Shown one piece after another: positions 20,064-32,070 of a stretch of 32,675 nt of DNA. Every line of letters begins with the position of its first letter. Position 1 is the stretch's first letter. The stretch comes from Candidatus Aegiribacteria sp. (GTDB lineage Bacteria > Fermentibacterota > Fermentibacteria > Fermentibacterales > JCC-6), in contig JAGLOY010000077.1 in NCBI GenBank assembly GCA_023138735.1, positions 1 to 32,675 on the forward strand, given 5' to 3'. The position numbers and the translations under genes are program-made. The notes below the pieces were generated by a model. That model was not told the DNA's origin, ran no database searches, and worked only from the letters and a program-made list of their open reading frames with translations.

Positions 20064-21266
20064 ATGAGTGCTTTCAAACGTGAAGTAGAAGACGTTCTGT
20101 TTGAATTAAGAAGCTCAATTACTGCTGTGATATCATCACTAGCCAAAGGCGCTGAGAGCGCAACAGCTCTTACCGAGTTTTTGAAGATAGACAAGACACT
20201 GGCCTGGAAGCTGTTCAATTTCTTCGAAACCGAGGATGTCTTTCTCTCCACACAGTACATTCCCGGGTACAAATCGTTTAATACATTTCTGAAGCAGTCT
20301 GCTAAAAAGAAGGCATCGTCGGAGCATATCACCAGAGCCAGAGATGCGATGGTTTATTTCTATGAATTGATCGAGAGATACGCTGGAGACAGGTCGTCAT
20401 TTGATCTCCTTGTACTTGGACTTTCTGTTGAAGGTAGCAAAAAAGCATATAGTGAACAGAAGAAAGCCTGTTTTCAGGCTCAGAGATTTTTAACCGGAGC
20501 CAGCGCATCTGTTGAATTCATTACAAACATCATACTTCCTGATGGAGGGGATAGTACTGAGATCGTTGGATTGAAGGGCTTCGTTAACATGATAAAGTAT
20601 CGCAAAGGTCCCATCACTCTGTACAGAGCACCTCTTGCTGGGAATCCAGATGATACTCTCACAGATGAAATGATTAAGCGTAAACCACTTGATATCAGGA
20701 ATGAGCAGTCTTCGATCATCATTCCGTATCTTCATGATTACTGCACATGTGATACTGTCAATCCTGGTAAGGATCGAATTTTCCTTACAATGGAAGACAT
20801 ATGTTCCGATTCAGCAGCAGGAAGTGACCGCACTCTGAACATGGTGACGTCTGAGAGAGTAACTTTTAACGGCGCGAAATATGACAGTACATCTACTATC
20901 AGATTATCCGCATCTGTGACAATGCCAGTTGAGCTACTTCTAATGGATGTATTCATATCAAAGGACGAACACAGAGGCCTCCCTGATATCAGTGTGTACA
21001 GCGATCTTCTGTTCTGCAATGCAGAGACCAAGCTGCATTGGATGCGAATGGATATTGAGAGAATGCCCTTCGATGAAAAGGTGATGCACATCGGTCGTGG
21101 AGCTTATTGTTCTCAACTTCCGGGAGTCCCCTGGTATTCGAATATGATTATTGATGTATTTCATCGTATTGGCCTCGATGAGAATGAATTCGATGTATTC
21201 AGAGTTCGTATTGAGCATCCATACCTTCCTTCGGAGGTAACTCTCACCTGGAGCGGGACCAGCTGA
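20064..21266 (+). CDS. Unknown protein with HTH-like N-terminus
   Basis: I do not recognise a named family. The 400-residue protein has no signal peptide or membrane helix. Residues 1-75 are helical and read like a winged helix (REVEDVLFELRSSITAVISSLAKGAESATALTEFLKIDKTLAWKLFNFFETED), followed by a helical region and a mixed alpha/beta C-terminal half containing several Cys (YLHDYCTCDT). It may be a transcription regulator with a sensor domain; that is a guess. The ATG at 20064 is chosen for the GGGGTG before it; an ATG at 20034 and a TTG at 20025 in the same frame are alternatives. It has its own promoter at 19987-20015. Confidence 0.7.
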   Translation: MSAFKREVEDVLFELRSSITAVISSLAKGAESATALTEFLKIDKTLAWKLFNFFETEDVFLSTQYIPGYKSFNTFLKQSAKKKASSEHITRARDAMVYFYELIERYAGDRSSFDLLVLGLSVEGSKKAYSEQKKACFQAQRFLTGASASVEFITNIILPDGGDSTEIVGLKGFVNMIKYRKGPITLYRAPLAGNPDDTLTDEMIKRKPLDIRNEQSSIIIPYLHDYCTCDTVNPGKDRIFLTMEDICSDSAAGSDRTLNMVTSERVTFNGAKYDSTSTIRLSASVTMPVELLLMDVFISKDEHRGLPDISVYSDLLFCNAETKLHWMRMDIERMPFDEKVMHIGRGAYCSQLPGVPWYSNMIIDVFHRIGLDENEFDVFRVRIEHPYLPSEVTLTWSGTS

Positions 21267-21545: not shown

Positions 21546-21962
21546 GTGATCTTTTGTTCTTTCCTTAGTTTTCGGAGGATGCTCACATCTACTACTATGA
21601 AAACACACGAAGCGATGCAGATTCTGCCTTCAGTGGCTTTGAAGCAATTCAGAGTAATAGGAAGCCCCCTTGATCTCTACGTGGGTACATGGCTCTGGGT
21701 GAATGATTGGGATGAGAACGGAATTCCAGATCTATTAGTCAGTGATTTTAATAGTTATGTCTATGTTATCATGGCTGATCTTACAGGTATAGCTGAAGAA
21801 ACAGCTCCCCGGATAAAGACTGGTTTAGCTGTGACACCTGCGATCAACCCGGCATCCTGTACTTCATCTTCGGTGGAGAGTCAGGTTATGCTGGATAAAC
21901 CAACACACAGGATTATGACAATAATTACTATTGATTGTTGCTTCATTTTCTACAATTCGTGA
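21546..21962 (+). pseudogene. Decayed FG-GAP secreted protein gene
   Basis: The frame contains one recognisable FG-GAP blade (YVGTWLWVNDWDENGIPDLLVSDFNS) directly followed by the start of a T9SS-like sorting domain (TGIAEETAP, then TPAINPASC), after which the sequence loses its meaning. No signal peptide exists, and the earlier blades are missing. I read it as the remnant of a larger secreted propeller gene after an internal deletion and a late frameshift. It lies between the shared promoter and the selenoprotein gene at 21976 and may act as a leader for it. Confidence 0.6.
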
Positions 21963-21975
21963 AAGGTGGGAACTC

Positions 21976-23019
21976 ATGAAACTAATACTTTTACTGCTAT
22001 CCTTTGTGGCAGTATTATCGGCGCAGCAAATTGTTCGTTCGTTCGATGCCCCTGACAACGGTATATCAGGGCTTGCATACTATGACAATTCACTATACGC
22101 TGTCGGGTCAATATCAAGCACTGTCTATGAACTTGATGAAATGTCAGGTTCGGTCAATAACTCCTGGATGGTGTCTACGCTTGGTTCTGAGATTCCAACA
22201 GGAATCGGTTATGCCGGTAATCTCCTCTACGTAGGAGCAGATGATGGTTCTGGTGCTGCCGGTCATGTTTACAAGTACACAACATCCGGGGGCTATCAGG
22301 GCTCAGTTGATATTCTTTGTTGAGGCAGCCCTCTCTGGTCGGTGACCGGAGTAGGCGGAAACGGTTCAAACGTATACATGGCAGGTAACAAAACCAGCAC
22401 ATCGGGTCCTGAAATGATAGCGAGGTGTTATCCGCTGCCTCTTAGCGATGCTACCATATCCTTTGCGACATACATCAACCAGATCAACAGTGTGAATATT
22501 TTCGATATTGCATACGATGGTGACGCAAACGGTGTTGGTGAAATATGGGCGGCAACCGATGATTCCGATTCACCTGTAAAATGCTACGCTTCCACCGGAT
22601 ATCCCAGCATGGCATTCCCAGGCAGCCTTATTTCAGCTGCCAGAGGAATCGCATTTTACAGTGAAGGTGCTCTGGATTATGTCTGGGTGAGTAATCCCGA
22701 TGATAATAAGATTTCCCTTGTATCTGTCGATCCTACAGGAATTGAAGGGGGATCACATGCGCTTGGGGAGATCGTGCTTTCATCCAGTATGAATCCCTTC
22801 TGTGAGTCGGTAACAATAACTGCAACCGGTGTTTCAGAAAATGCAACTGTTGAGATATACGATGTTACCGGAAGATCCATACTGAGTAGTTCCTTCAATG
22901 GAACATTCCATTGGAATGGCCATGGCTCAGATGGAGCAATTGTTCCCGGAGGATATTACTGCATCAGAGTGCTGGACACCGACGGATGGACAGCTACACT
23001 GAGTATTGTTAAGCTTTGA
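21976..23019 (+). CDS. Secreted beta-propeller selenoprotein, Cys-Sec motif (paralog 1)
   Basis: A 347-residue secreted protein with one in-frame TGA (22321-22323, residue 116). A signal peptide (KLILLLLSFVAVLSAQQ) is followed by a propeller of short blades (GISGLAYYDNSLYAVGS; IPTGIGYAGNLLYVGAD), the motif DILC-TGA-GSPLW, further blades (FDIAYDGDANGVGEIWAATDD), then NPFCESV, YDVTGRSILSS and PGGYYCIRV of a T9SS-like sorting domain. The frame and paralogy to 31054-32070 continue on both sides of the TGA at the same position, so the TGA is read as selenocysteine. A SECIS-like hairpin follows (22328-22356). AAGGTGG precedes the ATG. The gene ends at a TGA (23017) that is not read through. The redox or metal role of the vicinal Cys-Sec pair is unknown. 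Confidence 0.8.
22328..22356 (+). promoter_or_regulatory. SECIS-like hairpin, propeller 1
   Basis: Stem CTCTGGTC (22333-22340), loop GGT (22341-22343), GACCGGAG (22344-22351), eight pairs with one G-U, plus a lower GCC/GGC stem (22328-22330 with 22354-22356). The loop begins 17 nt after the TGA and has GGU, as expected for a bacterial SECIS. Confidence 0.7.
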
Positions 23020-23046
23020 GACCAACCCCCTCCACTTGGAGCTATC

Positions 23047-23073
23047 GTCCCGGATTGTATGGCAATCCGGGAC
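23047..23073 (+). terminator. Strong hairpin after the Sec gene
   Basis: GTCCCGGATTG (23047-23057), loop TATGG, CAATCCGGGAC (23063-23073), eleven perfect pairs, 28 nt after the stop codon. No T-run follows, so it may act as a processing or rho-assisted terminator. Confidence 0.55.
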
Positions 23074-23348
23074 ACCATTACTTTGCATGAACGGTTTGAG
23101 GAAATCTCGTATTACATCGGTGTGTACTGTACAATTACATAGTCGGTCCTGAATCAGTATCTATCTACTTGATATCGAGTATTCCTTTCAATGGAAGATA
23201 TATATTCCGGTTTGGATCCGGTCCCGTTCAGTTAGGCTCCCTGGACCTGTACTGTACCAACCCCTTCTGTGACGATATCTCAATTGCATTCTGGGATGAC
23301 ATTGATCTCGCTCCTTCTGGTGAGCAATCCCTCGGAAATGCTGACCCG
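23074..23348. other. Intergenic region with a possible protein remnant
   Basis: The plus-strand frame at about 23169-23381 includes QLGSLDLYCTNPFCDDISIAFWDD, which may be a degraded sorting-domain fragment (the TNPFCDD segment is similar in position to NPFCESV). No start or ribosome site is convincing. Nothing else is seen. Confidence 0.3.
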
Positions 23349-24317
23349 TCAGAAATGGAAGCGGAGCTCGTTAGAGGGTAGAGGAAGGAGATGTCCCCGT
23401 TTCGAGGGCTCTATGGGCTCCATGAGCCTACTCCTGAACTCGGGAGTGAAAAGGCTCTCGAAGTCGATGTGCTCCACCGGGCCGATCTTCCCTTCGTCCC
23501 TTCTTCTGAGTACTTCCAGCAGGAGTTCAGCCACCATATGGTCCACAGGGACCATTGTTTTCTCGGCAACCATGAGCACATCATCCGTCAGGCTGCCGTC
23601 CGCCATCCTGATATTGATAGTGGAGGACTCGCCGACAACACTTCCGGCATCGATCTCCTTCGAGACCTGGATTATCGCTGTCCTTGTAGTGTCGGCCCTT
23701 CTCGCAACCAGGTCCTCCCACGGCTGCGGACCAGCACCGTGATGGTTGAGCAGATCCGCAGGCTGGACGTTGTAGATGCCGAAGGCTGGATAGTCGATCA
23801 CCGGCCCGTCGATGAGCTGCCCGAAACCGGTCACGATGATGAATTCAGGATCCCACTCCGCCAGGAGCTTCCTGAATCCGTCGCATTTCACCTCACCAGT
23901 ATAGCAGGGTACTCCGAATGTCAGGGCTGATTCGATTATGCCCCTCTCGTACTCTTCTTGTTCCTCAGGTGTGTAATAACGCCAGAATCTCCGCTTCTTC
24001 GTTATCCTGGCCCGGCTGTCAACAGGATCGTCGGTGACCATTCCAACGATATTCACCTTCCCCGGCAGCCTACTCTCAAGCAGCTTCAGGGTTTCGAAAG
24101 TAAGGAAGCCACCGGTGGCGCTGCAGATTCCGAGCACCCTTAGACCTTCCGCCGTTTTTCCGGGATTTTCCGCTGCTGCAGGGAGCATAAGGTATCCCCA
24201 TCCAGTGTCTTTCAGCGTCCGGATCTCCCTGCCGGGAACTCCAGCGAGTACCCCGGTCAGGAGATCCTCCCTGCGGTCAGCGACATCTCTTGTTTCATCG
24301 ATCAAGGTTATTCCCAT
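23349..24317 (-). CDS. Formyltransferase-family protein
   Basis: A 322-residue cytosolic protein with the formyl-transferase N-terminal Rossmann core of Met-tRNA formyltransferase, PurN and ArnA: LRVLGICSATGGFLTFETLKLLES (from about residue 59), IIVTGFGQLIDGPVIDYPAFG, YNVQPADLLNHHGAGPQPWEDLV, and TAIIQVSKEIDAGSVVGES. These enzymes transfer a formyl group from 10-formyl-tetrahydrofolate. Of the catalytic N-H-D trio, Asn183 and Asp223 are present, but the His position (N-x-H) is Gln185, so classical formyl transfer may be lost or altered. It has an N-terminal extension of about 55 residues and no obvious Fmt C-terminal domain. ATG at 24317 has no clear ribosome site. Acceptor unknown. Confidence 0.75.
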   Translation of the reverse strand: MGITLIDETRDVADRREDLLTGVLAGVPGREIRTLKDTGWGYLMLPAAAENPGKTAEGLRVLGICSATGGFLTFETLKLLESRLPGKVNIVGMVTDDPVDSRARITKKRRFWRYYTPEEQEEYERGIIESALTFGVPCYTGEVKCDGFRKLLAEWDPEFIIVTGFGQLIDGPVIDYPAFGIYNVQPADLLNHHGAGPQPWEDLVARRADTTRTAIIQVSKEIDAGSVVGESSTINIRMADGSLTDDVLMVAEKTMVPVDHMVAELLLEVLRRRDEGKIGPVEHIDFESLFTPEFRSRLMEPIEPSKRGHLLPLPSNELRFHF

Positions 24318-24552
24318 CTGTGCGGGTAAACAAAAGGAAACTGGATTTGCACCATTTCACCAAAATGCCCCAAAACAGCATATCCGACCCAATGTCATCC
24401 AATATCGCTAACCGAAACTGACCATACTACCCGAACTCCGCAGCAGTCAATGATAAAGAATTAAGCAACCCTCCGGTCCCTGCGAAAAACCCACATAACC
24501 CACATTTGGACAAACCTCACCCATGAAGCCCGACTGCTTACGTAAGTCAGGG

Positions 24553-24582
24553 TCGACGTTTAGAGCGGGATACCGGTATAAT
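24553..24582 (+). promoter_or_regulatory. Promoter of the ABC-F gene
   Basis: TCGACG at 24553-24558, an 18-nt spacer and a perfect TATAAT at 24577-24582, giving a leader of about 95 nt before the ABC-F ATG. Confidence 0.55.
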
Positions 24583-24617
24583 ATTGGCGTAGAATCTGAA
24601 CTTTCAACCAGCCCAGG

Positions 24618-24671
24618 ATGGTGAAGCATGATCATTTCTTTCTGAAAACAGCAGCTCAAAGCAGTTTTTTT
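24618..24671 (+). promoter_or_regulatory. Leader with five-codon ORF and attenuator-like hairpin
   Basis: A tiny ORF at 24628-24645 (MIISF then TGA) sits behind AGGATGGTGAAGC and ends exactly at the base of a hairpin: AAAACAGC (24645-24652), 8-nt loop, GCAGTTTT (24661-24668) with one A-A mismatch, followed by a run of seven T (24665-24671). The ABC-F start codon lies 14 nt after the last T. This is the layout of ribosome-mediated attenuation known for some antibiotic-resistance ABC-F genes. A longer in-frame ORF from ATG 24618 also reads through. Confidence 0.45.
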
Positions 24672-24684
24672 AGAAAGGATTTTC

Positions 24685-26181
24685 ATGTATCAAACATATT
24701 TACGCATCAGCAATGTCTCATACACATATCCCGGTTCAAATCAGCAGGCGGTCAGCGGTGTTTCATTGAATCTCGACTCAGGCTGGACTGCCTTCGCCGG
24801 AGCCAACGGCTGCGGTAAAACAACCTTACTCAAACTCGCGACTGGGCTCCTGACACCTGATACAGGCTCGATCGTTTCTTCGGGAACGACTGTCTACTGT
24901 TCTCAGAGAACGGATCACCTTTCTGAGTTTCTGGATGAATTCCTTTTTGACTGGTCCTCGGGGTCCATCAGATTGAGGGATATTCTTAATATCGGAGATG
25001 ACTGGGGAGAGAGGTGGGATACTCTTTCCTACGGTGAACGAAGACGCCTGCAGATTGCCGCCGCAATTTGGACCAGCCCTTCTGTTCTGGCTTTGGATGA
25101 GCCTTTCAATCATCTTGACACGGATGGCAGATCCCTTCTGATCAGAGCAATGAGGGAATACCATGGCTGCGGTCTGCTGGTAAGTCATGACAGAAATGCT
25201 TTGGATCTGCTGTGTACTTCCTGCGTCCTGTTCTTTCCGGAAAGGATACAGTTATACAGAACAGGCTACACATCAGCGATGAAAGCCGAACGTAAAAAAC
25301 AGGAATACCTTACGGGAAAGAGAAAAATGGCTGGAGTGAAGTACCTGCAGCTGAAACGGGACGCAAGGAAAAAGATGATACAGGCCAGGACTCTGCAGGC
25401 TCACCTCTCCGGGAAGCGTATATCCTTCAAGGATATCTGCAAGTACAATTACGATGGTCCATCCCAGTATACCAGTAGAGTCCAGAATGCAGGACGGAGA
25501 AGCAGAGAGGCTTCGGCGAGGGCGGAGAGAGCGAAGGATCGCATGGAATCCATCAAGTACAGAAAGATATACGGCACCGGTGTTGAACTGACCGGAGAAA
25601 TATCCACCAGAAACTACCTTCTTGAGATACTTCCGGGAGAAATCAGAATTGGTGAGGCTACCCTCACGTATCCGCACCTTGAAATCAAATCCGAAGACAG
25701 GATAGCGCTAACGGGCGGAAACGGAACCGGCAAAACCATGCTGCTTGCCCATCTCAGGTCAGAACTGAACTGCCCCCCGGAAAAATTGATCTGGATTCCG
25801 CAGGAGATCACCGCCGGGCAGTGCAGTTGTCTTCTTGAAGAGATTAAGAAACGTTCCAGAGAAGATCTCGGGCAGATAATGACCATTGTAAGAAGGCTTG
25901 GCAGCGATCCGGAAAGGGTGCTCTGCTCCGAAATCCCCAGCCCTGGGGAGGCCAGAAAACTGCTGCTTGCGTTTGGCCTTTCAAAAACGCCATGGCTTGT
26001 TATTATGGATGAACCCACAAACCATATGGATCTGCCATCAGTGGAATGCCTGGAGAAGGCGCTGAACGATTACACAGGCGCCCTGGTGCTGGTCAGTCAT
26101 GATAGAGAATTCCTGGGTAATACAACGAGTATTCAGTGGAATATCATGGACAGAAAATTATCCGTTACAAAAAACGCTTAG
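24685..26181 (+). CDS. ABC-F family ATPase
   Basis: A 498-residue soluble protein with two ATPase domains and no membrane helices. Domain 1 has Walker A GANGCGKTT, signature LSYGERRRLQIA, Walker B VLALDEPFNHLD and SHD. Domain 2 has Walker A GGNGTGKTM, Walker B LVIMDEPTNHMD and SHD, but its signature is PSPGEARKLLLA, lacking the usual LSGG. The interdomain region (about residues 190-310) is basic and helical, as in the tRNA-contacting arm of ABC-F proteins. Such proteins act on the ribosome and some confer antibiotic resistance. AGAAAGGA precedes the ATG. The leader suggests translation-responsive expression. Whether it is a resistance factor or a housekeeping translation factor cannot be told. 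Confidence 0.9.
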   Translation: MYQTYLRISNVSYTYPGSNQQAVSGVSLNLDSGWTAFAGANGCGKTTLLKLATGLLTPDTGSIVSSGTTVYCSQRTDHLSEFLDEFLFDWSSGSIRLRDILNIGDDWGERWDTLSYGERRRLQIAAAIWTSPSVLALDEPFNHLDTDGRSLLIRAMREYHGCGLLVSHDRNALDLLCTSCVLFFPERIQLYRTGYTSAMKAERKKQEYLTGKRKMAGVKYLQLKRDARKKMIQARTLQAHLSGKRISFKDICKYNYDGPSQYTSRVQNAGRRSREASARAERAKDRMESIKYRKIYGTGVELTGEISTRNYLLEILPGEIRIGEATLTYPHLEIKSEDRIALTGGNGTGKTMLLAHLRSELNCPPEKLIWIPQEITAGQCSCLLEEIKKRSREDLGQIMTIVRRLGSDPERVLCSEIPSPGEARKLLLAFGLSKTPWLVIMDEPTNHMDLPSVECLEKALNDYTGALVLVSHDREFLGNTTSIQWNIMDRKLSVTKNA

Positions 26182-26187
26182 CCTGTG

Positions 26188-27299
26188 CTAAAGTGTTTCC
26201 AGCATGTATACCTTCTGGTAACCCCGGGCCGGATTCTCTGAATACGCAAGTACTCCGGCTGACTGGATAATAACGTTCCAGTATTTTCCCTCTGAGGGTT
26301 CCACAGGAAGGGTAACAATCCTTAATAGTTCTCCTGAGTTATCGTATACATCGAAGGTCGGAATCTGCTCGATGCCCCTTCGAACCCAGATGTTACCATA
26401 ATCGTCTATCCCCAGTCCGCTTATCATCGGATAGAAGGGATCAGGCGAGCAGCTCTGGTCACCCGCTCCCAGGCTGACTAACCTGGCTTCCATGAATTCC
26501 GTCTCTTCTTCCAGTTCTACTGGTGTCATTTCGACAGGCTCAAAATCGTTTCGAACCAGCTCAAATACCTGTTCACCGCTGGTATTGTAACCAAGAACTT
26601 CGTATTCTGTGCTGGATCGAGAAGCGAAGTATACTGTTTCGTAATCAACCTCTGCTACGCTGTATGCGTCGAACACGTTTTCGAACAGTGGGGCTGCGTT
26701 GGTGGGGGTAAACTCGAAACTCTGTTCCGCAAGAACGACATCAGGCTCATTGTCTCCCGGCAGATAAATGCCCAGAGTCACGTCCGCCATGAGTCTGTCA
26801 TCCCGCGGCATCATCTGAAAATGAACAGCCACAAAAGAACTGTCCCTCATCCCGGCAAGTACGAACGGTGGAGGAGTCATACCCCTGGGATATTCAGCGA
26901 TCCATTCACCTGTATTGAAATCAAACCTTTCCATTGCGTCCCTCTGACTGACAAGAAGGTTACCGTTTTCTGTAATTGTCATGAATACGGTCTGGCTCAT
27001 TTCCCCGGGTCCATCACCCGCGCGGCCTATCTGCCGCTGAAAAATACCATCCCGGCTGTAGACCATCACTCTGGAAAATGCTCTGTCAAGAAGAACGATA
27101 GACCCGTCCTCCAGAATCGTGAGCCCCTCTATCGAGCGAACATGTAAAGACTGTCCCCGATCTCTACACCCATTGAATCAGTAAATATCAGTTCAGAATC
27201 CGGCATCTGAGGTTCAGGAGTGGTTATCTGCTCCGTTTCCCCTCCACAGGATAGCATGAGAATCGCTGTAACAATAAGCTCAATTGTCAATCGCTTCAT
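26188..27299 (-). pseudogene. Six-bladed beta-propeller lipoprotein, frameshifted
   Basis: The N-terminal part starts at ATG 27299 (GGGAGATGG upstream) with a lipoprotein signal ending LMLSC, a linker and DSMGVEIGDSLYMFAR, then stops at TAG 27129-27131. The homologous continuation (SIEGLTILEDGSIVLLDRAFSRVMVYSRDG, then IGRAGDGPGEM) is in another frame from about 27138 down to 26188 and ends normally. One missing base near 27131-27139 would join them. The GRAGDGPGEM blade is shared with the partial lipoprotein at 32159. The gene is either recently inactivated or carries an assembly error. Propeller lipoproteins of this type are of unknown function. Confidence 0.75.
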
Positions 27300-27412
27300 C
27301 GCCATCTCCCATTCTTTCATTAATTGCATCAATAAGAAGAAGATGTTACAGAAAATGGAACTGTCAACCGAACTTCCGGGTTATACCTCGAGTTTAAGGG
27401 GGATTAATTAAA

Positions 27413-29590
27413 ATGAGAAATACTTTGATTATCCACGTGCTGCTTCCGCTTTCGATTATAATGACGATGGGGTGTATCGATACTGGAAACTCTGAAGGGA
27501 CAAACGGTATGGCTGATACTTCGAACGGAATGAACAGGCTCTCCGAGGAGACAAGTGCCTATCTCCTCGCACATGGGGACAACCCGGTCAACTGGTATCC
27601 ATGGGGGGATGAAGCCTTTGCTGCCGCCAGAACAGAGGATAAGCCCATATTCCTATCAATTGGCTACTCCTCCTGTCACTGGTGCCATGTCATGAAAGAG
27701 GAGAGTTTTGAGGATACTGAAGTAGCCGCTCTTCTGAACGATGCGTTCATCTGTATAAAGGTTGACAGGGAAGAACGCCCCGATATCGATAATTTATACA
27801 TGAGATTCACAGTTGTGTTGACCGGCGGCGGGGGCTGGCCCATGACGGTTATAATGACATCGGAAGGTGACCCCTTCTTTGCGGCAACCTACATCCCTAA
27901 AAACGCATCGTTCGGAAGAACCGGCATGATGCAGCTTCTGCCTGCAGTTGCCAGGCAGTGGGAGACCGGAAGGGAGGAAATAGCCGCGCAGGCTGCTGAA
28001 ATAGAGAGAATTGTTATTCACAGCCAGCAGGTTTCTACGGTTTCTCGGGAACCTTCCCAGGGTGTTGCCGACAGCAGTTTCTCTGCCTTCAGGTCTTCTT
28101 TCGATCCGGAGTTTGGAGGGTTCGGTACCGCTCCGAAGTTCCCTTCACCGCATAACCTGATCTTTCTGCTCCGGTACTGGAATGCAACGGGGGAGCAGAG
28201 CGCCCTTGATATGGTCACGGCAACTCTCCGGGCTATCCGCTGCGGCGGGATATATGATCAGCTGGGATTCGGCATTCATCGCTATTCAACGGACAGGGAA
28301 TGGCTGGTACCCCACTTCGAGAAGATGCTTTACGACCAGGCTCTGCTAACGATGGCTTTCCTAGAGGCTTACCAGGCAACGGAAGATGAGTTCTTCGCCG
28401 GCACAGCCAGGGAGATTCTTGAGTACGTTCTTCGTGATATGACTTCAGCCGATGGAGCTTTCTATTCCTCCGAGGATGCTGACAGCGAAGGAGGGAAAGG
28501 TGCCTTCTACACATGGAGCCTTGATGAGATGTCCCGCGTACTCACTCCAGCCGATCTGCAGGTTGCGACCGAGTATTGGAATGTCACTGAATCCGGGAAC
28601 TTTAGAGAAGCTGGCGCGTTAGATAATAGCAGGAGCATACTCCACTTGACCCGGGAGAACTGTTCCTCGTCATTAACCTCGCCGGGGGAGCTGCAGGATG
28701 TCATTTCCGCCGCAAGGCGGACTCTCCTCCTCTCGAGAGAAAGCCGGCCAGGACCATTCAGAGATGAAAAGGTTCTGTCTGACTGGAACGGACTGATGAT
28801 AGCTGCCCTGGCGAGGGCCTCCATTGTTCTTAATGATCCACAGTATCTTGATGCCGCGGTTGAAGCCTTCGAGTTCATCAGTGACAGGATGATGACGGTC
28901 GATGGGAGACTTATCCACAGCTTCACAATGGGCAGACAGGGCCCGGAAGCATTCCTTGATGATTACGTATTTCTGATTTGGGCCTGTCTTGAGCTTTACA
29001 GCGCTTCCCTTGGGCAGCAGTACCTCCATACCGCCATCGAACTTCAGGGTGCGCTTGACAACCACTTCGCGGACGATTCAGGAGGAGGATACTTCTTTAC
29101 CGGAGATTACGCAGACCCGAAGATCCCAAGGCTGAAGGAATCCTACGATGGTGCCGTGCCATCTGGTAATTCGGTGGAACTGGGCAATCTCATTTCGCTC
29201 TGGAAGATCACAGGAGACCCACGGTACATGGAAAGTGCTTCCCGAATCGAGTCTGCATTCGGGGCATCCGTATCCGCTGCACCCACAGCTTATTCCATGC
29301 TGTAAACGGGGATAATGTACGGAAGGAATGGGGGAACTGAAGTTCTGCTTGTGGGTGAATCCGATGATCCTGTATTGCTGGAGATGCTTACTGTGCTTCA
29401 AGCGGGGTACAGGCCGTGGACCACAGTAGTTCTTATGGATCCTGCAAATGCTCTGGATGGGCCTGCATGGATTCCGGATATCTCCGATATTTCAGTTATA
29501 CCTGCAGCTTACGTTTGCAGAGGCGGCGCCTGTAGCCTTCCGGTGGGAACCGCCCGGGAACTTGAAGAACTGCTTGCGCAGGATCCCTGA
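27413..29590 (+). pseudogene. yyaL: DUF255/YyaL thioredoxin-domain lipoprotein, interrupted by TAA
   Basis: A DUF255 (spermatogenesis-associated protein 20-like) protein: a thioredoxin-like N-domain with the redox motif CHWC (Cys88, Cys91) in [19 protein letters not shown] and [11 protein letters not shown], then an (alpha/alpha)6 glycoside-hydrolase-like domain ([39 protein letters not shown]). The first frame stops at TAA 29303-29305, but codons continue in the same frame and give the family's C-terminus (GTEVLLVGES, YVCRGGACSLPVGTA) to TGA 29588-29590. The joined protein would have 725 codons, near family size. A lipoprotein signal ends IIMTMGC (Cys21). ATG 27413 follows AAGGGGG. The ochre codon is a nonsense mutation or an error; unlike the TGA cases it has no SECIS. 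Confidence 0.85.
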
Positions 29591-29627
29591 CCTGGAGGGA
29601 GAAAGGCAATTCGAACCTGGTTCATCA

Positions 29628-29678
29628 TTGACCTTCCAAGACGACTGTATAATAATCGTTTATACGTTTCTGGAAACG
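29628..29678 (+). promoter_or_regulatory. Promoter and inverted repeat of the FG-GAP selenoprotein
   Basis: TTGACC at 29628-29633 with TATAAT at 29648-29653 (short 14-nt spacer) or TAATAA at 29650-29655 (16 nt). Downstream is an inverted repeat CGTTTC-TG-GAAACG at 29665-29678. Confidence 0.4.
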
Positions 29679-29705
29679 AGTACATTATGCTTTAGGGAGG
29701 AAGAA

Positions 29706-30941
29706 ATGCGATACATTGCTCTGCTGTTTATTGTACCACTTCTGGCGCTTGCCGACCTGCCTTTGTTCCGCGAGCCGGTAATCATTGAGGCGGATGGTGT
29801 GAACCTTGATGTTGGAGTCATGTCCGATCCCTTCATGGTTGACTGGGATGTGGACGGACTTGTTGACCTTCTGGTGGGGCAGTATTCACCAGGCAAGGTC
29901 AGTTTCTACAAGAATATCGGAACCAGCGGGAATCCTGTATTCACATTTTCGAACTACCTTCAGGCTGACGGAAGTGATATTGCTGTCAGCTATGGTTGAT
30001 GCACCGGAGCCACAAATCCACAGGCTGTGGATTTCAACAATGACGGTATTCTTGATCTTGTTCTCGGAGAGAGAGACGGTTACTTCAATTTCTACACAGG
30101 CAACGGTGACGGTACCCTTCATTTCATAGGCTATCCCTTCGACGATCTTGGTAACCCCATCGAAAGAAACTACAATTCCTCTGGTTACCTCGATGACTGG
30201 AACGAAGACGGGTATATTGACTTCATCGCAGGCGGATACGAAACGGAAACAACAAGCGGCGGGATTCTGGAGGTGTATCTCAACACCGGTGATGATATCA
30301 CTTCACCAGTATGGAGTGCATCAACAATAGATCTTACGTCTTCAGTCTCCAACAAGTGGAGGCTCACCCACCAGACCTTTGATCTGGACCGGGACGGAGA
30401 CAAGGATCTTGTACTCGGTTATGAAATGGGTAATGTGTGGTTCGCTGAAAATATCGGCACCAACAGTAATCCCTCCTTCAACGGTTACGTACAGCTTGTG
30501 TGCGATGGCGGGGACATCAATGTCTACGACAATTATCCCGGCGGAGGAAGGGCTCGGGAGAATGTAATTGACTACAACAGCGATGGCATTCCAGATATTC
30601 TTTCAGGCTGCAACAACGGATGGATCTACTACTTTGAAGGGTACGATCAAACAGGAATCAGCGAAGGTGCTTCAACTTCTCCCGTGGAGTTTAATATGAC
30701 TCTTTCGGAAGTACCTACTTCAGGCATGTTCTCTGTCAATATGACTCTTCCGGTGGCCGCTGTGGTGGAGATCAATATCTTCGATGCATGCGGGAGAATC
30801 GTAGAATCCTCCAGCGCATCCCATCAGATCGGCTTTGCGTCTGTTCAGATGAATATCACGGACGTTCCAGCTGGTATGTACATAGTGTCTGTATCTGCCG
30901 GGGGAACGATGGAAACCGCAAGACTGATTAAGATAAATTAA
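29706..30941 (+). CDS. Secreted FG-GAP propeller selenoprotein, Sec-Cys motif
   Basis: A 411-residue secreted propeller with one in-frame TGA (29997-29999, residue 98). A signal peptide (RYIALLFIVPLLALA) precedes FG-GAP/VCBS blades: VDWDVDGLVDLLVGQYSPG; DFNNDGILDLVLGERDGY; DDWNEDGYIDFIAGG; DLDRDGDKDLVLGYEMG; DYNSDGIPDILSG, each a calcium loop with alternating Asp. The TGA lies between blades, in AVSYG-TGA-CTGATNPQAVDFNNDG; related proteins commonly have Cys there, giving Sec-Cys. The frame stays open for 314 more codons and ends in a sorting domain (IFDACGRIVESS, AGMYIVSVSAG). A SECIS-like hairpin follows the TGA (30014-30034). GGGAGGAAG precedes the ATG; true stop is TAA. Confidence 0.8.
30014..30034 (+). 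promoter_or_regulatory. SECIS-like hairpin, FG-GAP propeller
   Basis: AAATCCACA (30014-30022), loop GGC (30023-30025), TGTGGATTT (30026-30034): nine perfect pairs with a GG-bearing apical loop starting 23 nt after the TGA. Confidence 0.7.
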
Positions 30942-30971
30942 GCGCCGTTTAACGTGATGATGAGTATGAAT

Positions 30972-30989
30972 ATACTGTATCGACAGTAT
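30972..30989 (+). promoter_or_regulatory. Inverted repeat between two Sec genes
   Basis: ATACTGT-ATCG-ACAGTAT, seven perfect pairs with a four-base loop. It lies 31 nt after the FG-GAP selenoprotein stop and upstream of the next one; it may be an operator or weak terminator. Confidence 0.35.
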
Positions 30990-31053
30990 TGAGAGGATAT
31001 GCTCTTGACCAAAAGGAGTGTATAAGTGAACTTCATATGAAAGGAAGGTAATT

Positions 31054-32070
31054 ATGAAAAACGTTCTACTGCTTGTTCTACCGCTTATGGTTGCAGTTTG
31101 TGTGTCGGATCCTGTTCTGGATCGTACACTGACCGCTCCGGATGGTAACATCACCGGTCTTGGCTACGGAGAAGGATATCTCTGGGCGCTCGACAAAACC
31201 TCCGAGACTGTCTACAAGCTGGATCCACTTACAGGTGCTGTTGAGAATTCCTGGGTCTGCACCCAGACAGGTACGAAGATTCCCACAGGACTTACCTACA
31301 TGAATAATTATGTATACGTGTGCGCCGGTACTGCAACCGGAACCGCAGCATATGGTTACCGGTACACCTCAGCTGGAGCGTATGTCAGTAATTTTTCGAT
31401 GGACTGTTGAGGAAGCGATTTAGACCAGGAGGTTACTGGTCTTGCTTCCAGTTCAAATGTTGTATTCGGTGCCGGAGTCGATACACAATCACTGTGGGAA
31501 ACTGTTGAGAGATACAGCGCAACAGGTACTCTTCTTACGGGACCTTACCTTTTCAAGCCAATTGGTCTTCCTGAGTTCTTCGATATCGGTTATTCGGGTG
31601 GAGATATCTGGTTCGCCTGCGATGATGCGGATTCCCCCATTAAGGCTTTCAACACTGCAGGTGCACTTACGGATTATATCTGGAACACCGTCGTTCCCGC
31701 TGCCCACGGGCTCTGTTTCGAGGACGATCAGTACCTCTGGGCCAGCAATATTTACACCGATGAGCTGTACAGGATAAACCTTAATCCTACAGGGATAGAG
31801 GGACAGGAGATTGAGTCTGCAATTTCACTTGTCTCCAGCAATAATCCTTTCACCACTTCCGTGACAATCCAGGGTACTGGCTTCTCCGAGGCTGCTGTTC
31901 TGGAGATATTCGATATAATGGGCAGGAAAGTGTATATTGCTTCATTCAACGGTTCCCACACCTGGGGTGGATTCGACATGAACGGGAATCAGGTTCCATG
32001 CGGAACCTACACAGCTCTTGTTCACGACGAGCTTTCCGGAGGCGTAACTCTAAGACTGCTTCGTCTTTAG
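31054..32070 (+). CDS. Secreted beta-propeller selenoprotein, Cys-Sec motif (paralog 2)
   Basis: A 338-residue secreted protein with one in-frame TGA (31408-31410, residue 119). It is the paralog of 21976-23019: a signal peptide (KNVLLLVLPLMVAVCVS), blades NITGLGYGEGYLWALDK, SETVYKLDPLTGAVENSW and IPTGLTYMNNYVYVCAGT, then SMDC-TGA-GSDLD at the same position as DILC-TGA-GSPLW, FDIGYSGGDIWFACDDADSP, LNPTGIEG, NNPFTTSV and FDIMGRKVYIASFNG with a T9SS-like end (CGTYTALVHD). The frame is open for 219 codons after the TGA to TAG. The conserved C-Sec-G-S across two divergent copies argues for selection on the Sec. AAGGAAGG precedes the ATG. Confidence 0.82.
31411..31449 (+). promoter_or_regulatory. 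SECIS-like hairpin, propeller 2
   Basis: A long two-part stem starting at the base after the TGA: GGAAGC (31411-31416) with GCTTCC (31444-31449), and AGACCAG (31422-31428) with CTGGTCT (31436-31442), apical loop GAGGTTA (31429-31435). An asymmetric bulge (GATTT) separates the two. This is very like classical bacterial SECIS structure, with GGU in the loop. Confidence 0.8.

Follow-up and report, generated by a model that had tools for sequence, protein, structure and literature searches.

Three genes in a 32,675-nt stretch of DNA from Candidatus Aegiribacteria sp. (contig JAGLOY010000077.1; the whole stretch is called the window herein) almost certainly encode selenocysteine (Sec) at an internal UGA codon. 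The genes, P0001, P0002, and P0003, represent two families of beta-propeller proteins: family A, the "CUGS" type of P0002 and P0003, and family B, the FG-GAP or "GUCTG" type of P0001. In both families Sec is very likely, export is likely, and a redox pair of cysteine (Cys) and Sec at the surface is plausible. Precise chemistry aside, we consider the decoding of Sec within an exported propeller highly probable. The source genome (G000) is a metagenome-assembled genome (MAG) of 3.22 Mb in 192 contigs, with 91% completeness and 3.8% contamination.

Each of the three genes has an ATG start with a purine-rich stretch just 5' of it and contains exactly one internal stop codon, a TGA; the genes end in TGA (P0003), TAA (P0001), and TAG (P0002). 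When the internal TGA is read as U, the surrounding motifs are ILCUGS in P0003, YGUCTG in P0001, and MDCUGS in P0002, and the portion before the UGA makes up about a quarter to a third of each protein. P0001 is an FG-GAP propeller (PF13517, E value 7.8e-19, five stretches). P0002 and P0003 belong to another propeller type; as paralogues, they share 39% identity before the TGA and 37% after it. An earlier note on this DNA, made from its letters alone, had described three genes with a single in-frame TGA and homologous protein on both sides, two of them paralogues with C-TGA-G-S and the third an FG-GAP gene with G-TGA-C-T. That description agrees with the motifs, the Pfam match, and the paralogue identities given here (codon positions are in Table 1).

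Coding conservation across the TGA was also found beyond the paralogues. P0001 has an 88% identical copy on contig C53, which might be a strain variant. Past the TGA the two differ in 99 codons, mostly at third positions (65 synonymous and 34 nonsynonymous), and before it in 24 codons (9 synonymous and 15 nonsynonymous), a pattern indicating that purifying selection acts downstream of the TGA in this family B pair. All seven family A matches in G000 (E < 1e-20) and all eight family B matches (seven full length, one partial) have a single TGA, with TAA and TAG absent, giving 15 Sec propeller genes in this genome. Among 42 genomes of the phylum Fermentibacterota, family B matches occur in 37 and a TGA-bearing row in 36; family A matches occur in all 42, with a TGA-bearing row in at least 40 among the matches listed. 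The 130 family B matches listed include 99 with exactly one TGA, 3 with TAA or TAG, and 28 with no stop, and only two full-length rows of these 28 cover the Sec column, where they read E and D. Among the fetched loci, 60 of the 62 family B rows (59 of 61 distinct, L073 being a cut duplicate) and 58 of the 77 family A rows have U in the column, but these loci are a selection (best matches, 20 stretches picked for having no stop, and 40 picked from TGA rows), so the 130-row listing gives the fairer proportion of TGA for family B. The earlier note had named truncation of all homologues at the TGA as a finding that would speak against Sec; frames continue past it both in G000 and in the profile matches from the 42 genomes.

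Genes of the two families are adjacent in at least six places: this window, G000 C3, G002 C166, G002 C152, G015 C34, and G038 C200, the last with the neighbours in reverse order. A tree of 56 family B rows has seven changes of the Sec label; its branches are long and its deep forks weak, so neither a single origin nor transfer can be claimed for Sec in this family. Three family A rows have a second TGA in the read-through frame, 60 (L151) or 140 (L155 and L161) residues past the Sec TGA, that is either a second Sec codon or the true terminator.

The published model of the bacterial Sec insertion sequence (bSECIS) has its apex 16–37 nt from the UGA, a G in the first two loop positions, and an energy of -7.5 kcal/mol (PMC13188914, available text). 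A hairpin of this kind, with the G in place, follows the Sec codon at all 59 family B and all 58 family A sites in Fermentibacterota (117 of 117), including the three window sites, at which the earlier note had already reported a hairpin at bacterial SECIS distance. The apical loop begins 22–26 nt (family B) or 15–20 nt (family A) past the UGA, within 16–37 nt at 116 of the 117 sites. Energies of -5 or lower are reached by 59/59 family B and 56/58 family A hairpins (115/117), and energies of -7.5 or lower by 42/59 and 51/58 (93/117). Hairpins were stronger than in synonymous-codon shuffles (P value ≤ 0.05) at 56 of 59 family B and 46 of 58 family A sites. By comparison, 12 of 19 non-Sec family A relatives are without such a hairpin, and none of the 19 reaches -5. 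Each of the 117 hairpins allows a GGU or GGC at its apex, with 4 to 8 of 8 flanking positions paired. Covariation scores, for which the anchor was picked to maximise pairing and which are therefore biased toward structure, are separated from their controls by large gaps: 0.685 for 36 distinct family A hairpin windows, vs 0.198 shuffled and at most 0.164 slid, and 0.854 for a pooled set of 26 (14 of 26 family B and 12 of 36 family A windows), vs 0.276 shuffled and at most 0.153 slid. In the 36 family A windows, 92.7% of cells pair, and two-sided changes are found in 70 cells vs 21.0 when shuffled.

Machinery for Sec decoding is encoded in G000. The earlier note had proposed looking for the sel genes; selA (513.8 bits), selB (327.9 bits), and selD (317.9 bits) are present, and selC is represented by its last 23 nt at a contig end. 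The selD gene carries an internal TGA of its own, and SelD reads AGUAGK. A search of G000 with Rfam (RF01852) found no tRNA-Sec, the best match being a tRNA-Ser; in a DNA search with the tRNA-Sec region of the relative G002, the match ran to the last base of contig C163 (8602 nt), whose final 23 nt were identical to the 3' end of the G002 tRNA-Sec. The suggestion that G000 is without selC was rejected because the contig ends inside the tRNA-Sec gene. Matches to tRNA-Sec above 70 bits were found in 13 of 17 relatives of the same genus (all except G004, G006, G010, and G012) and in 6 of 6 of the same order, and ARAGORN identified all 19 loci (L081–L099) as tRNA-SeC with anticodon UCA. The selA gene was found in 38 of the 42 phylum genomes, including 24 of 24 near-complete ones. 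In G012 (73% complete) there is no selA, no family B, no tRNA-Sec that passes the cut-off, and no family A copy with a TGA, which fits the Sec reading; this co-absence is not proof, since G004, G013, and G023, all incomplete, have TGA copies with no selA seen.

Sec copies of family B appear to extend to other phyla. GTDB genomes were scanned with the family B profile, and the best 80 loci were kept. The column reads Sec in 34 of the 93 rows that cover it; 10 of the 34 belong to Fermentibacterota and are partly the same genes as in the phylum set. All 34 are among the 55 rows of at least 100 bits from these best loci. Lineages were taken from the titles of MAG contigs, which can be wrong; by these labels, Sec copies occur in WOR-3/Stahlbacteria, Fibrobacterota (with Chitinivibrionales), Zixiibacteriota, Nitrospirae, Planctomycetota (with Phycisphaerae and Kuenenia), Lentisphaerae, Verrucomicrobia, Bacteroidetes, and Desulfuromonas. 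Stem sequences differ in these phyla, for example CAGUCGC/GCGACUG, UCCGCU/AGCGGA, GUCCACG/CGUGGAC, and GUCCAUG/CAUGGAC. With the loop allowed to start from 12 nt, 29 of the 34 hairpins reach -5 and 21 reach -7.5; the weak cases are L265 (no hairpin), L256 (negligible), and L254, L247, and L248 (weak).

Nearly all Sec residues have a Cys partner. The 58 family A U rows comprise 42 with CU and 16 with CxxU, and the 60 family B U rows comprise 55 with UC, two with UxxC, one with CU, and two with no Cys nearby. That a Cys is kept near Sec despite shifts in order and spacing suggests that the two act together. Eleven family A rows that read S at the Sec column and the E row of family B have lost both Sec and Cys, and the other eight non-Sec family A rows keep one Cys nearby. 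A rule by which loss of Sec always brings loss of Cys was dropped; it fails for family B rows that read D or G. Sense codons in non-Sec rows are read as losses of Sec, since almost every close relative has TGA in the column and covariation is seen in the SECIS hairpins. In the E row of family B (L168/L228, G006 C35), U-C is now E-T, a perfect 9-bp SECIS hairpin is retained, and a Sec copy is adjacent, apparently a natural and recent loss of Sec; the D row has a different hairpin with a 9-nt loop. A variant of family B at L054 and L111, both on the minus strand, has the motif STUGHAATPNP, with Sec and a hairpin and no nearby Cys. Relatives of family B with Gly in place of Sec are from Verrucomicrobia (L251, L253, L263, and L268) and Aquisphaera (L252).

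AlphaFold2 (AF2) models built from seven-row alignments (predicted confidence, pLDDT, of 80 for P0002 and 73 for P0001) are nearly all beta, and they place the Cys-Sec pair in a predicted inter-strand loop, at residues 116–125 in P0002 and in the low-confidence stretch 98–102 in P0001. The folds match generic propellers, with glutaminyl cyclase, YVTN/NHL, and PorZ for family A and BBSome, integrin, and CRTAC1 for family B. The structural matches listed are remote (8%–21% identity, query TM-scores of 0.16–0.53). The sorting domain of P0001 scores above the cut-offs for both PF18962 (31.3 vs 27) and TIGR04183 (30.8 vs 23), and N-termini of all three proteins are hydrophobic by eye. SprA (TIGR04189), the sole component of the type IX secretion system (T9SS) searched for, is present in G000, where it passes the cut-off together with its neighbours in the frame, and scores over the cut-off in 40 of 42 phylum genomes. 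Export has support in P0001 and is likely for the other proteins. A different C-terminal tail, [ST]-W-x-x-I-K, was observed at 40 distinct ends of open reading frames across 232 sources, which comprise the window, the loci up to L227, and those from L308, such as L025 (end at 2265) and L091 (693–1367). It occurs on many otherwise unlike exported-looking proteins, also on some family A Sec propellers without a T9SS-like domain, and may be a further signal for sorting or attachment.

From these data we infer a path from Sec insertion to a surface redox site. SelB carrying Sec-tRNA(UCA) would bind the hairpin, whose apical loop starts 15–26 nt downstream and in almost every copy contains GGU or GGC, and the one UGA would be decoded to place Sec in a loop of the beta-propeller. 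The propeller would then be exported, at least partly via the T9SS. With Cys adjacent to or three residues from Sec, the pair would most likely cycle between selenol/thiol and selenenylsulfide as an outward-facing redox site. We rate export as likely, and regard the chances that the pair is a redox pair as about even.

Several observations weigh against this account. One family A loop begins at 15 nt, just outside the 16–37 nt range, and 17 of 59 family B and 7 of 58 family A hairpins are weaker, as evaluated here, than the published -7.5 kcal/mol. Pairs with two-sided changes in the family A windows (6 of 8) are not above shuffles (5.5). G006, at 94% completeness, contains Sec copies, yet no tRNA-Sec match there exceeds 70 bits; this is a small point against Sec or another assembly gap. 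The earlier note had given T9SS tags to all three proteins; that of P0001 stands, but the tails of P0002 (CHU_C, 26.4 vs a cut-off of 27, short by 0.6 bits) and P0003 (PF18962, 21.8 vs 27; TIGR04183, 21.4 vs 23) fall below the curated cut-offs. Neither catalytic residues nor partner proteins were identified, and two family B U rows have no Cys near U. The softest part of the case is the classic exchange of Sec and Cys, which is weakly represented: no close Cys-for-Sec homologue of either family was found among the fetched loci and GTDB rows. The earlier note had proposed checking whether homologues have U or C at this column, and U is indeed present in nearly all close rows, but C appears only in distant ones, as C-C in L270 (Armatimonadota) and L287 (Rikenellaceae) and as a single C in L264, L267, L176, and L178. 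It had also counted a sense codon for any other residue against Sec. Such codons do occur in a minority of rows, with E and D in close family B rows and residues such as G, S, and P in relatives further away, although TGA occupies the column in nearly all close relatives. Additionally, the D row L169 and the G rows L251, L252, L253, L263, and L268 of family B keep the neighbouring Cys.

The main rival explanation accepts that Sec is inserted and holds that the pair, in place of a catalytic redox role, binds a metal or forms a structural selenenylsulfide resisting reduction in sulfidic water. Propellers are often binding scaffolds, the pair is modelled in an inter-strand loop in both proteins, and the top PDB folds are of several kinds (glutaminyl cyclases, YVTN/NHL, PorZ, BBSome, and integrin-like FG-GAP). 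The variable spacing and order of the pair (CU, UC, CxxU, and UxxC) would suit a bond or a ligand pair as much as catalysis. Against such a role, most uncharacterised selenoproteins are likely redox proteins according to the available text of PMC13188914, a vicinal Cys-Sec pair would be a poor cross-link over distance, and no conserved set of His or Asp was seen near the pair in the family alignments, which were inspected by eye. We regard this role as unlikely, while giving it more weight than any other alternative. It has also been considered that the UGA doubles as a selenium-gated stop, giving a truncated N-terminal peptide without selenium and the full propeller only with it. Gated termination of this sort follows from how any Sec codon works, and roughly one quarter to one third of the protein does precede the UGA, but nothing indicates that the truncated peptide has been retained as a working unit, and conservation is approximately equal on both sides; a regulatory role of this kind seems improbable.

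The two remaining alternatives dispense with Sec altogether. If a suppressor tRNA or a changed code made the UGA a codon for an ordinary amino acid (Trp, Gly, or Cys), the frames would be open once the TGA is read through, as observed. This is very improbable given that there is one TGA per gene in one column, that TGA terminates P0003, and that sel genes, a tRNA-Sec, and covarying SECIS elements past the codon are found; the tRNA-Trp identified has the normal anticodon CCA. The other alternative is that these are pseudogenes or assembly errors, with chance stops in decaying propeller genes. The genome is an incomplete MAG with some contamination, as described above, and a neighbouring gene has a stray TAA, but TGA copies of family B are present in 36 of 42 genomes, the TGA is in the same column in nearly all close rows and in further phyla, only 3 of the 130 family B rows listed have TAA or TAG, and selection past the TGA appears purifying. 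The chance of this is negligible, and we regard it as already refuted by conservation. Our preferred reading remains one of Sec-containing, exported propellers.

Table 1. Positions of the predicted Sec propeller genes, their Sec codons and SECIS hairpins, and a related gene remnant in the window.
Feature	Position	Strand	Remarks
P0003, family A Sec propeller gene	21976..23019	+	Motif C-U-G-S; C-terminal T9SS-like domain below curated cut-offs
P0003 internal TGA, read as Sec, residue 116	22321..22323	+	
P0003 SECIS hairpin	22333..22351	+	8-bp stem; GGU apical loop begins 17 nt past UGA
P0001, family B Sec propeller gene	29706..30941	+	FG-GAP repeats; motif G-U-C-T-G; T9SS type A sorting domain above cut-off
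P0001 internal TGA, read as Sec, residue 98	29997..29999	+	
P0001 SECIS hairpin	30014..30034	+	9-bp stem; GGC apical loop begins 23 nt past UGA
P0002, family A Sec propeller gene	31054..32070	+	Motif C-U-G-S; C-terminal T9SS-like domain just below cut-off
P0002 internal TGA, read as Sec, residue 119	31408..31410	+	
P0002 SECIS hairpin	31422..31442	+	7-bp stem; loop GAGGUUA, inner GGU
Family B FG-GAP gene remnant (late blade and tail start), no Sec site	21546..21962	+	A2 profile 27.6 bits, model positions 263-333

The family B remnant adjoins P0003 on its 5' side, as if a B-A pair had lost its first member. Upstream of P0001, a thioredoxin-domain-like gene (27413–29590, with SSCHWCHVM) has an in-frame TAA at 29303, and its frame is open onward to a TGA at 29588–29590. 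This TAA is not a Sec codon; a recent nonsense mutation or an error of assembly is its probable cause. Among the genes that the earlier note had listed as ending in TGA, those ending at 21266, 23019, and 29590 were looked at; TGA is present at each of these ends, but the last of these genes is the one broken by the TAA.

We searched for previous descriptions of these families. Table 1 of a 2026 review (PMC13188914) lists 119 prokaryotic selenoprotein families, and no FG-GAP, propeller, or T9SS protein is named among them. Neither family is in that catalogue, in keeping with the remark in the earlier note that extracellular Cys-Sec propellers are, as far as known, not described. P0001, P0002, and P0003 had no match to a selenoprotein family in NCBIfam 20.0 at E ≤ 0.1. 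Literature searches found no description of either family, though unnamed candidates are possible in Deng et al. 2026 (Cell Rep, groundwater MAGs) or in supplementary tables. We tentatively suggest that exported Sec propellers could be a large, multi-phylum class of bacterial selenoproteins that has been missed since gene finders stop at UGA, that they are perhaps the main class in Fermentibacterota (15 in G000), and that they bear a surface Cys-Sec site for redox or sulfur chemistry in sulfidic, anoxic water. If so, two selenoprotein families would be added with a fold not named in the PMC13188914 catalogue. An uncultured phylum would be shown to have up to 15 such genes per genome, and truncated annotations in several phyla would be corrected. 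The families also yield more than 100 SECIS elements with compensatory changes and raise the question of why selenium is spent on proteins that leave the cell.

Compared with propellers that have no Sec, family B shares its fold and FG-GAP repeats with integrin alpha and CRTAC1, and family A shares its fold with glutaminyl cyclase/YVTN/NHL propellers and PorZ. We know of no Sec pair in any of these. Mammalian thioredoxin reductase has a C-terminal GCUG, in which the adjacent Cys and Sec can form a selenenylsulfide. The C-U-G of family A is shared with that motif, but the pair is internal here, in a propeller loop, and C-terminal there. Bacterial selenoproteins decoded by selABCD with a bSECIS element have in common with these families the UGA, the SECIS geometry, selA, selB, selD, and tRNA-Sec, and a Cys near Sec, as far as the available text of PMC13188914 describes them. 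Adjacent Cys and Sec occur there in the CU-motif selenoproteins SaoC, SaoL, KCU-star, and MbdU, as they do here, a comparison made by motif only. The same text names selenoproteins that look extracytoplasmic (the TonB-dependent receptor FCYXU, an MtrB/PioB-like barrel, the cytochrome ExtKL, and a UshA-like protein) and that, to judge from their names, would likewise place selenium outside the cytoplasm. These are outer-membrane, cytochrome, or UshA-like proteins and, unlike families A and B, none is named as a propeller. The decoding machinery is a known one; the protein class and its location appear to be new.

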